64,000 bases of DNA from Blastocatellia bacterium. GTDB lineage: Bacteria > Acidobacteriota > Blastocatellia > Chloracidobacteriales > Chloracidobacteriaceae. Positions within the stretch are counted from its first letter, which is position 1. Each line of letters starts with the position of its first letter. Shown here one piece after another: positions 7,141 through 11,747 of the stretch. Both the position numbers and the translations under genes were made by a program. Under the pieces are notes generated by a model. The model was not told the origin of the DNA and ran no database searches. It worked only from the letters and a program-made list of their open reading frames with translations. The stretch spans positions 1 through 64,000 of the forward strand of contig JAIBAN010000005.1 of NCBI GenBank assembly GCA_019695185.1. The letters are read 5' to 3'.

Positions 7141-10100
7141 ATGTCAGTACCTTTTGCGCTTTCGCCTGAGGTCAATCTCACCCAAATCCGGCACCTCGAA
7201 CCGCTTTTGGACCGGTTGCAGGAAGCCTTGGCAGTGATTTGGGCCGATGGAACTTTGCTGTGGTGCAACCGGGCTCTGGCTGAGCTGGCTGGGGTGAACC
7301 GGGCGGATTTACCACAACCTGGCTTCTTCCCCTCGCCAATGGAGGCCGGTTTGGCGCGGGGAGGCACGTCCTTTCAGTGCCTCCGGCATCCACTTGTTGC
7401 CAGTGATGAAAAAGAAACCTGGCTGTTGACCTTCCAACCGGTAACGGTTCCCGAACCTCGGCATGAACCGGCTGACCTGTTCCGGAATCTGTTTGAACAT
7501 GCACCGATTGGCATGTACCGGTCCACTCCCGACGGGCGTTTGTTGCTGGCCAATCAGGCGCTGGTTCACATGTTCGGGTATGACTCTTTTGATGAAATCC
7601 GGACTCGCAACCTGAACAACCCGGATGATTTTCAACTCGAATATGACCGGGCTGCCTTCCTGCGCCGATTGGAACAGCACGGCGAAATCCACGGCTTGAG
7701 CGCCGTCTGGCGGCGGCGGGACGGAACCCTGATTCATATCAATGAAAATGTTCGGGCCGTTCGGGGAGAAGACGGCACGCTCCTGTATTTGGAAGGTACG
7801 GTTGAGGACATCAGCGAGCGGAAAATCACCGAAGCCGCCCTGCGCAACCGCGAGACTTTTATCCGCACGGTGTTGGATTCATTGGTTTCAAGTGTCATGG
7901 TGCTGGACCGTGAAGGCCGGATTTTGACCTATAACCGCGCCTGGGAGGAACTGGTCAAACAACATCGGCTGGCACCGGCCTTTCTGACTCCGGGAGCCGA
8001 CTATCTTGCCATCCTGCGCCAAACAACCACGGGAAACCCAACCGCCGAACGGGAGTTTGCCGACCGGGTGGAGCAGGTGCTGGAAGGCGCGTCCTTTGGC
8101 TGCACGCTCGAATACAAACTCAACCAGGAGCAACCGGACAACTGGTTTGGCATGCGGGTGATGCCGCTGCAACAGGAAGCCGGTGGGGTGGTGATTACCC
8201 ATACCAATACCACCGACCGCAAACAGGCCGAGGAACTGATGCGGCTGGCGCACAATACGGCCATTGAAGCAGCCCGCACCAAGTCGCAGTTTCTGGCCAA
8301 CATGAGCCACGAAATCCGGACCCCGCTCAATGGGGTGATTGGGATGACGCACCTGCTGATGGGGACCTCCCTCGATGCGGAACAGTCGGATTTTGTCGAG
8401 ACCATTCAGCAATGTGGGGATGCGCTGCTTTCCATCATCAATGACATCCTTGATTTTTCGAAACTTGAAGCCGGAAAAATGAAAATCGAGGTCATCGAGT
8501 TTGATTTCATCGGGCTGTTTGAACGGCTCTACCGGCTTTTTCAGGAGCGGACCCGTTCCAAGGCGATTGCTTTTTCCTATCATATTGACCCTGATTTGCC
8601 GGGCATTCTGGTCGGCGACCCGGCCCGTCTGCGGCAGATTCTGATGAATCTGGTGAGTAATGCCATTAAATTCACCGAACGCGGTTCGGTAACGTTTGCG
8701 GCTTACAAAAAAGCAGAAACGGAAACCGCCATAACGGTCCGGTTTGAGGTTCAGGACACCGGCATCGGCATTCCGGCGGAGATTTGCCATCATTTGTTCC
8801 AGCCCTTTGCCCAGGCCGACGATTCCACCACCCGGCGGTTTGGCGGGACCGGGCTGGGGCTGGCCATTTGTAAGGAACTGACCGAAATGATGGGGGGCAC
8901 CATCGGCGTCGAAAGCGAAGTCGGAGTGGGCAGTACCTTTTGGCTGACGCTTGACTTTCAGAAATACAATCAATCCACCGATTCCTTTGAAAGCGAATTG
9001 AAGCTCCCGCCGGGAGTCCGTTTGCTGGTGGTGGATGACAATTCCACCAACCGCGACATTCTCTGCCGCCAGGTTCAAGGCTGGAAGCTGTTTTGTGAAA
9101 GCGTCGGTTCGGGGACACAGGCCCTCGAAACCCTCCGCCATGCGGTTGAGGGGGGCAATCCCTATCATTTTGTCCTGCTGGACATGCTCATGCCCGAAAT
9201 GGACGGGATGGAACTGGCCCGCCGGATTAAAAGCGAAGCCGCCTTGGCTGATACCCTGCTGGTCATGTTGACCTCGTTCAGCCGTCGGGGGCATGGTGAG
9301 GAAGCGCTCCAGGCAGGTATTTCGGCCTATTTGAGTAAACCCGTCAGTTCCCGGCAGCTTTATCGAGGTTTGGTCAAGGTGTGGTTTGAGCGTGGCGGTG
9401 GTGAGACGGGTTTGGTCACCCGCTACGAATTGGGTGAAACCGGAGAGCGACCATTGCCGGAAAAAGGGTTCCGGGTCTTGCTGGTTGAAGACAGCGACAT
9501 CAATCAGGCGGTGGCCAAGGGAATGCTGGAACGCCTTGGTTGTCAGGTCGAGGTGGCTTCCAATGGGCTCAAAGCCTTGAATCTGTTGCAGTCCACCTCC
9601 TTTGACCTGATTTTCATGGATTGCCAGATGCCGGTCATGGACGGGTTTGAGACGACCGGAACCATCCGGGAACGGGAGACCGGAACTGACCGCCATATTC
9701 CCATTGTGGCGTTGACGGCCAGCGCTATGCCGGGGGACCGGGAACAATGTCTGGCTGCCGGCATGGATGATTACATCAGTAAACCTTTCAAACCAGAGGC
9801 TTTTGCGGATATGTTGCACCGTTGGGCACAACACCGCCAGCCCCAGCCCGTGGCCCATGCGGCAGCGCCAGTGCCCTCACTTGAGCTGGAACCCGAAACA
9901 GAAATCCAAACTCTGGAGCCAACCCCGGTGATTGAGGAAACCGCCTTTGAACAGATTGAGTATTTGGCCAACGGAGATGACAGCTTTGTGGTTTCCATTC
10001 TGAATTCCTTTTACAAAGGAATGATTGACAGCCTTCAGTTGGCCCAAAATTCTCTGGCTGCAAATGACCGGGACCAATTGCGCCGCGCTGCCCATAAAAT

Positions 10101-10290
10101 GAAAGGCAATGCCTATAGCGTAGGGGCTGCGCGAATTGCCGAGATTACCAAAGTCATGGAGGCCACCGCCCTCCAGGAAACCACGGCCCAAATAACCATT
10201 TGGATGGAAAAACTGCGGGGTGCCATCACTGAATATGAACAGGCCGTCACTGCCCGTCTGGGAGGCAACGACACATGGCTGAAGATGTAG
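7141..10290 (+). CDS. Hybrid sensor histidine kinase: PAS x3, HisKA-HATPase, two REC, HPt
   Basis: A 1049-residue soluble kinase with no membrane segment. In order it has three PAS-like domains (about 20-100, 110-235, 240-365), HisKA with [13 protein letters not shown] (His390), HATPase_c with N, G1 and G2 boxes ([24 protein letters not shown]), REC1 (LLVVDDN, Asp681), REC2 (LLVEDSDIN, Asp827) and a C-terminal HPt ([11 protein letters not shown], His985). It can run a full His-Asp-His relay internally. The stop overlaps the next gene by 16 bases, and that gene starts with a REC domain, its natural acceptor. I chose the ATG at 7141; an upstream GTG at 7078 is in frame but has no clear ribosome site. 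Confidence 0.93.
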
Positions 10291-11747
10291 CCAAAGCTCA
10301 CGAATGGCATGAAAAAGGCAAAATTCTGGTGGTGGATGATAACGCCACCAACCTGGAATTGCTGTCGAGCATATTGGTGGGTCGCGGATATGGCGTCAAA
10401 GCGGCTGTCAGTGGCAAGCGGGCGCTGGCATTGATTTCCGGGTTTCAGCCGGATTTGATTATGCTCGACATCAATATGCCCGAAATGGACGGGTACGAAT
10501 GTTGCGCCCAGCTCAAGGCAAATCCGGAAACCAGCCGGATTCCGGTGATTTTCCTGAGCGCCCTGGACCAGCCGATGGATAAGGTCAAAGCCTTCAAGGT
10601 CGGCGGGGTGGATTACATCACCAAACCGTTTCATTTCATGGAGGTGCTGGCCCGGATTGAAACCCACCTCAAAATTGCCCGCCTGCAACGGGAAATGGAA
10701 CGGAAAAATGCCGAACTGGCCAAGAAAAATGAGGATTTGATACAGGCCAACAGCCGGGCCGACCGGATTTTTTCCCTTCTTTCGGATGTTTTGCCCGGAA
10801 CGGTTCTGGATGGAAAATACCGTCTGGAGCAAAAGGTTGGAACGGGCGGTTTCGGGACGGTATACCAAGCCGTCCACACCAACCTGAACCGTCCGGTAGC
10901 TGTAAAAATATTTCAACCTCCGCCCGGCACAAAACCTGAAGAGGAGTTGGAGCGCTTTCGCCTGGAAGGGATTTCGGCCTGCCGGGTCAACCATCCGAAT
11001 GCGATTTCCGTGCTTGATTCAGGGGTTTCACCCGAAGGAATCGCCTATCTGGTGATGGAGTTGCTGGAAGGGCATACCCTCTTTCAGGAACTAAAGGAAA
11101 AACGGTTCCTGACCCCAGACCGGTGTTCCCAAATCATTTTGCCAATTTGTGAAGTGCTCCAGGTGGCCCATGCCGCCGGAATTGTCCATCGTGACATTAA
11201 GCCCGAAAATATATTCCTGCATACCACCAGTGAAGGTGAAGAAGTGGTCAAACTGCTTGATTTTGGCATTGCCAAACTGTTGGGTGACTCTGGCGGAAGC
11301 GAAGGTCCGGCTTTGACCATGGGGAAAATTGTCGGCACGCCGTTGTACATGTCACCCGAACGGTTGAACAACAAACCCTATGATGGGCGGGCTGACATTT
11401 ATAGCCTGGGGGTTTTACTGTACCGGTTGCTGACCGGCCATCTGCCCTTTGAATCCCCCGAAGGGGATGTCATGGCGGTTGCCGTCATGCACATTACAAT
11501 GGAGCCGCCGCCCTTGCACCATTTTAACTCGCTGGCCCCAAAGGAACTGGAACCAGTGATTTGGCGCGCCCTGCGCAAAAATCCGGAACATCGGTCCACG
11601 GCTGCCGAGCTGGCGGCGGATTTTCGTATGGCCCTGACCCGCATTGATGAAAAAACCAAAGTCCCTCCGGCTGGAATTTCACTGCCGGCGGTCGTGGAGG
11701 TGGCAACGCTGGTTTCAGACACCGGGAAATTGAAAAAAGGGTCTTAG
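10275..11747 (+). CDS. REC-Ser/Thr protein kinase fusion
   Basis: A 490-residue soluble protein. An N-terminal receiver (about 15-135) has ILVVDDN, phospho-acceptor Asp65 in MLDINMP and YITKPF. A charged helical linker (135-165, likely coiled coil) leads to a complete Hanks kinase: GTGGFGTVY, AVKIF (Lys211), HRDIKPEN (Asp near 307), DFGIAK, GTPLYMSPER. There is no membrane segment. The start overlaps the hybrid kinase gene by 16 bases and has GGGAGG upstream, so translation is coupled. The expected role is a Ser/Thr kinase gated by Asp phosphorylation from the partner's HPt; the direction of control is inference. Confidence 0.92.
   Translation: MAEDVAKAHEWHEKGKILVVDDNATNLELLSSILVGRGYGVKAAVSGKRALALISGFQPDLIMLDINMPEMDGYECCAQLKANPETSRIPVIFLSALDQPMDKVKAFKVGGVDYITKPFHFMEVLARIETHLKIARLQREMERKNAELAKKNEDLIQANSRADRIFSLLSDVLPGTVLDGKYRLEQKVGTGGFGTVYQAVHTNLNRPVAVKIFQPPPGTKPEEELERFRLEGISACRVNHPNAISVLDSGVSPEGIAYLVMELLEGHTLFQELKEKRFLTPDRCSQIILPICEVLQVAHAAGIVHRDIKPENIFLHTTSEGEEVVKLLDFGIAKLLGDSGGSEGPALTMGKIVGTPLYMSPERLNNKPYDGRADIYSLGVLLYRLLTGHLPFESPEGDVMAVAVMHITMEPPPLHHFNSLAPKELEPVIWRALRKNPEHRSTAAELAADFRMALTRIDEKTKVPPAGISLPAVVEVATLVSDTGKLKKGS

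Follow-up and report, generated by a model that had tools for sequence, protein, structure and literature searches.

Results

Two overlapping genes encode a hybrid histidine kinase and a receiver-Ser/Thr kinase

The window, by which we mean the whole stretch of 64,000 nucleotides analyzed, lies in the genome of a Blastocatellia bacterium (222 contigs totaling 8.33 Mb, with a completeness of 99.7%) in which matches to 119 HisKA, 12 HPt, and more than 100 Hanks-kinase domains were found. The first gene considered here (7141..10290, +) encodes a hybrid histidine kinase (HK) with the domain order PAS-PAS-HisKA-HATPase-REC-REC-HPt. The reading frame is open from a GTG at 7078, and the gene spans 7078..10290 with this start or 7141..10290 with the ATG start, from which HK residues are numbered. 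Pfam matches comprised two PAS domains, HisKA (E 1.4e-23; 8281..8475, phosphoacceptor His390), HATPase_c (3.3e-31; residues 492-607, 8614..8961), two Response_reg domains, and a C-terminal Hpt (1.7e-10). Receiver 1 carries Asp681 (9019..9375, approximate borders), and receiver 2 carries Asp827 (9475..9816) and is the expected donor to His985 of the HPt domain (9997..10218). With a HisKA phospho-His, an HATPase, a receiver Asp, and a C-terminal HPt His on one protein, the HK has the domain makeup of the unorthodox hybrid type. The initial annotation had described a hybrid kinase with two receivers and a terminal HPt (His985), which the Pfam matches and residue positions reproduced exactly, and had seen no membrane part; indeed, the HK is soluble and without a membrane segment by hydropathy, as the maximum over every 19-residue stretch was 1.1, below 1.6. 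An antisense ORF of 656 aa over this gene (7888..9858) was judged to be a shadow of the HK coding strand.

The second gene (10275..11747, +) overlaps the first by 16 bases (10275..10290), as had been reported, and encodes a 490-aa protein, hereafter REC-kinase, with Pfam matches to Response_reg (4e-28) and Pkinase (6.6e-53). Its receiver (10323..10658, +) contains D21, D22, D65, S95, and K117, and its Hanks-type kinase domain (10818..11615, +) contains K211, H305-R306-D307, D329-F330-G331, and the activation-loop T348. The earlier description of a receiver (Asp65) fused to a complete Hanks kinase holds on both the Pfam matches and the motifs, all of which are present: the Gly loop, the VAVK Lys, HRDxKxxN, DFG, GTPxYxxPE, the subdomain IX Asp, and the final Arg. 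The protein thus combines the residues of a phosphorylatable receiver (DD, D, S/T, K) with an effector, as is characteristic of response regulators with enzymatic output. In a family alignment of 14 sequences, receiver residues D21, D22, D65, and K117 and kinase residues K211, D307, and D329 are invariant, while T348 is conserved in at least 90%. Because the catalytic residues of both domains are invariant in 14 homologs, the architecture is not a product of chance. The nearest solved structure to the kinase domain is PknB, and that to the receiver is PleD; no PDB chain among the best matches spans both domains.

The two genes are followed by a strong RNA hairpin (11772..11846, +; z -3.5) between convergent genes, which is probably a two-way terminator or a small repeat. 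Beyond it, a chemosensory-like cluster convergent with the pair (11867-20217, -) encodes REC-DUF4388, a BBP2 porin, CheW, CheB, and a 1185-aa three-HPt protein. No Rfam match was found within the window, a promoter scan gave no signal above chance, and no plasmid match was found.

The receiver and kinase domains are joined by a linker of constrained length

A total of six complete REC-kinases were found in the genome itself and about fifteen more in relatives. The family is patchy, being present in 7 of the 147 genomes of the class at a threshold of E 1e-60. A scan of genome contigs with the full alignment returned mostly kinase-only relatives, and few of the matches included a receiver.

The 54-residue linker (10656..10817, +) is predicted to extend helix alpha5 of the receiver. 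Linker lengths of 47, 54, 61, 68, and 75 residues were found in one, nine, eight, two, and one proteins, respectively, such that all 21 REC-kinases, across five lengths, have a linker length equal to 5 modulo 7. When the linker was left out of the tree, a minimum of 8 length changes was required; were indel sizes indifferent, the chance that all 8 changes would be multiples of seven would be about (1/7)^8. The rule is not a general property of these proteins, since the DFG-to-GTP loop of the same REC-kinases differs by single residues. In an AlphaFold model of modest confidence (pLDDT 78.5 and pTM 0.58 with a 14-row alignment), residues 121-171 form a single predicted helix running from receiver alpha5 through to the kinase N-lobe, with block pLDDT values of 67-89. 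Taken with this model, the length pattern is what would be expected of a phase-keeping coiled coil that passes the state of the receiver to the kinase within a dimer. Through such a coiled coil, a dimer of receivers would signal to a dimeric kinase by rotation or by a shift in register.

Related arrangements of these domains were also observed. The same receiver and linker (61% identity) bear another output, either GGDEF or a histidine kinase, at two further places in the genome, L014:5920-6936 (-) and L015:6763-7923 (+). The linker and kinase of the window protein (about 50-58% identity) occur in about 35 ORFs of 1200-1475 aa and in L039:4632-8453 (-), which make up a large expansion of Ser/Thr kinases. 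In the latter, the one ORF of this set that was scanned, Reg_prop beta-propeller repeats precede the kinase, an arrangement resembling a hybrid two-component sensor in which a Hanks kinase has taken the place of the histidine kinase. One REC-kinase (L162:7258-14572, -) follows a 1788-aa Ser/Thr kinase-AAA-GAF-SpoIIE phosphatase protein. In Alcanivorax (L044:5944-7728, +), a receiver and a Ser/Thr kinase lie in one frame with two stop codons between them, and are either adjacent genes or a split fusion. A truncated REC-kinase in the genome (C148; L016:80-1111, -), in which the kinase profile ends at 129 of 263, looks decayed; its linker is still within the modulo-7 rule.

REC-kinases adjoin histidine kinases in several arrangements

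Among the REC-kinase genes with readable surroundings, 11 of 17 adjoin an HK gene. Analysis of these neighborhoods led to three types. In the HPt type, found so far at three loci in two genera, the HK carries the HPt domain. This type includes the window pair and two loci of G003, a genome from another genus within the family, in which the genes are separated by a 131-base gap (C109) or overlap by 4 bases (C48). The HKs of all three HPt pairs are soluble by hydropathy. In the direct type, a hybrid HK, often of the Reg_prop-Y_Y_Y kind, overlaps or touches the REC-kinase gene (C34, C7, and C143 in the window genome; C97 and C21 in G011). In the three-gene type (G001, G033, and G265), the gene for a hybrid HK comes first, then that for a lone receiver, and last that for a HisKA-receiver-kinase protein, in which one or two HisKA domains, but no HATPase, precede the receiver and kinase.

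The order of the three-gene type, from the HK receiver through the lone receiver to HisKA, receiver, and kinase, is that of the HPt type with the gene border shifted; the putative phosphotransfer histidine lies on the REC-kinase itself. By analogy with Spo0B, the ATPase-less HisKA on the REC-kinase probably acts as an HPt. The three acidobacterial loci at which HATPase-less HisKA domains precede a REC-kinase, downstream of genes for a hybrid HK and a single receiver, are L143, L024/L038, and L161; a deltaproteobacterial protein has the order HisKA-REC-GAF-kinase (L056:144-2522). A reading of G265:C108 as a single fusion of HK and REC-kinase was rejected: the start of the long ORF is an out-of-frame reading of the upstream HK and lone receiver, and with all frames read, the true protein is a HisKA-REC-kinase without HATPase.

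Two other HPt-HKs of the window genome also run into the receiver gene downstream of them, C144 by 20 bases and C172 by 4, which indicates that for an HPt-HK to overlap its target receiver is a local habit. The receiver proteins overlapped by these two HPt-HKs are of about 185 aa (L139:7955-8512 and L140:252-812), and their C-terminal 70 residues matched no Pfam family.

No DNA-binding domain was found by Pfam in either the HK or the REC-kinase of the window. The absence of a DNA-binding output, as initially annotated, therefore stands for the window proteins but does not extend to the branch as a whole. In G011 C21 (L029:787-2859 (-), L037:3596-5668 (-)), the REC-kinase carries an ECF sigma domain (PF07638) as a fusion and is overlapped by a hybrid HK gene, so the branch can reach transcription. 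This arrangement suggests that the kinase acts on its attached sigma factor, and a route from HK to kinase to sigma factor within one operon is possible.

The HPt pairing is conserved in two genera

In the HK tree, the cores from the three HPt pairs group together as one clade (support 98/98). Their REC-kinases also form one clade, recovered in 87% of bootstrap trees with support (89/88) that is moderate; both trees have few members. The window pair and that of the other genus share 46% identity in the HK core and 62% in the REC-kinase. The simplest reading of these sequences is that the pairing arose once, before the split of the two genera. Four of the six complete REC-kinases of the window genome adjoin an HK; assuming roughly 7000 genes, 119 of them HKs, the chance of this is about 2e-5. 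On the same rough basis, the chance that any of five HPt-HKs would adjoin any of six REC-kinases is about 0.01, the recurrences in G003 being uncounted. Since a related genus has kept the pairing, the relay pair is probably real.

Discussion

The domains, catalytic residues, gene overlap, co-inheritance, and heptad-locked linker described above, all read from sequence, point to a cytoplasmic four-step phosphorelay with a protein kinase as its output, gating Ser/Thr phosphorylation, and we consider this a likely function for the pair. An internal signal would be sensed by the PAS domains of the HK, which would autophosphorylate on His390; the phosphate would pass to a receiver of the same HK, most likely to Asp827, then to His985 of the HPt, and from there to Asp65 of the putatively translationally coupled REC-kinase. 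Phosphorylation of Asp65 may then alter the dimer state of the receiver, and one continuous alpha5 coiled-coil helix would relay this change, rearranging the two kinase domains. The rearrangement would control whether the kinases autophosphorylate each other in trans on T348 of the activation loop, and hence the phosphorylation of target proteins on Ser/Thr. Activation is the more likely effect of receiver phosphorylation on the kinase. The transfer from HPt to Asp65 to kinase, already proposed in the initial annotation, thus gains from the conserved pairing, the C144 and C172 overlaps, the alternative arrangements, and the linker, while phosphotransfer, coupling, dimer mechanism, sign, and targets are what we infer.

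The HPt might instead chiefly serve other receivers, chemosensory or stand-alone, with another donor for the REC-kinase and an overlap that reflects co-expression only. The many HisKA domains and orphan receivers of the genome would allow for this, as would the three-HPt protein encoded just downstream on the opposite strand. In addition, several REC-kinases stand alone (C10, G003:C52, G010, and G017), and such solitary members indicate that a REC-kinase can work without a linked HK. We nevertheless find this explanation unlikely, as the HPt-HK and REC-kinase were inherited together in two genera and the further HPt-HKs of the genome overlap a receiver gene of their own.

A flow in the reverse direction, with the histidine kinase as a substrate of the Ser/Thr kinase and the receiver serving mainly for docking, has precedent in Ser/Thr kinases that phosphorylate two-component proteins (PMC12189002). 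It is very doubtful here, as every receiver catalytic residue is kept in all homologs, the heptad phase of the linker would be needless for a mere docking domain, and the HisKA-REC-kinase variant has a phosphotransfer His directly ahead of the receiver. That the module is decaying or non-functional, a by-product of massive paralog expansion, is hardly credible: despite the number of Hanks-kinase matches and the C148 relic, neither ORF is disrupted or missing any catalytic residue, and the pair persists in another genus at the divergence given above.

A relay of this kind would not be categorically new. The statement in the initial annotation that the pair joins two systems usually treated apart was too strong, since Ser/Thr-His hybrids, receiver-PP2C regulators, Sln1-Ypd1-Ssk1, and Rim15 are already known. 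In yeast, the hybrid HK Sln1 acts through the HPt protein Ypd1 on the receiver Ssk1, which controls the Ser/Thr kinase Ssk2; the yeast receiver and kinase are two distinct proteins, whereas those of the window are fused. The window HK resembles the unorthodox HKs of the EvgS/BarA type in its order of HisKA, HATPase, receiver, and HPt, with a response regulator as final acceptor; EvgAS is a His-Asp-His-Asp relay with the response regulator last (PMC4494823). Unlike that type, the window HK is soluble and has two receivers, and the output of its regulator is a Ser/Thr kinase rather than DNA binding. In Pseudomonas aeruginosa, the histidine kinase PA2824 phosphorylates the receiver of the receiver-PP2C regulator PA3346 (PMC12189002); as proposed here, the level of Ser/Thr phosphorylation is set by a histidine kinase acting through a receiver, but the output of PA3346 is a phosphatase. 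Fungal Rim15 also has a receiver and a Ser/Thr kinase on one protein. The receiver of Rim15 lies at the C terminus and in most Ascomycota is devoid of the Asp, and its role had apparently gone unstudied (PMC8510515), whereas the receiver of the window protein is N-terminal and canonical, and the order is receiver then kinase rather than the kinase then receiver of the Rim15 group. The cyanobacterial HstK-type proteins carry Ser/Thr and histidine kinase domains on one polypeptide (PMC2176072, PMC1262709). Both kinase chemistries would likewise meet within one pathway here, but the window has two proteins joined by HPt and receiver, neither of which combines the Ser/Thr kinase, AAA, GAF, and histidine kinase of the HstK type. 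The PknB-family kinases of Mycobacterium (PDB 5u94, 1mru) share the kinase fold (34-36% identity), but PknB has no receiver and is a PASTA kinase of the membrane.

Among the open-access papers searched, none was found that describes a bacterial receiver-Ser/Thr kinase or a bacterial pair of an HPt and a receiver-Hanks kinase. We do not claim a first description of a receiver-Ser/Thr kinase, and Ser/Thr kinase outputs are reportedly listed in Galperin's response-regulator censuses. Several junctions between His-Asp and Ser/Thr signaling are already known, and the relay proposed here is a testable variation on them.

More broadly, it seems about as probable as its opposite that the receiver-Hanks kinase of the Acidobacteriota, with its heptad-locked coiled-coil joint, is a plug-in His-Asp output wired in at least three ways: through an HPt on the HK, by a hybrid kinase directly, or through an ATPase-less HisKA acting as an HPt on the REC-kinase. 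From the seven-residue rule, linker changes of seven residues would be expected to keep control, and changes of other sizes to break or invert it. If the plug-in reading is true, a His-Asp system would command a branch of Ser/Thr kinases, as the yeast osmosensor does a MAP kinase cascade, though with only a single, direct step. If the transfer works, bacterial His-Asp signaling would directly set how active a Hanks kinase is, which would account for the input to part of the very large complements of Ser/Thr kinases in acidobacteria.
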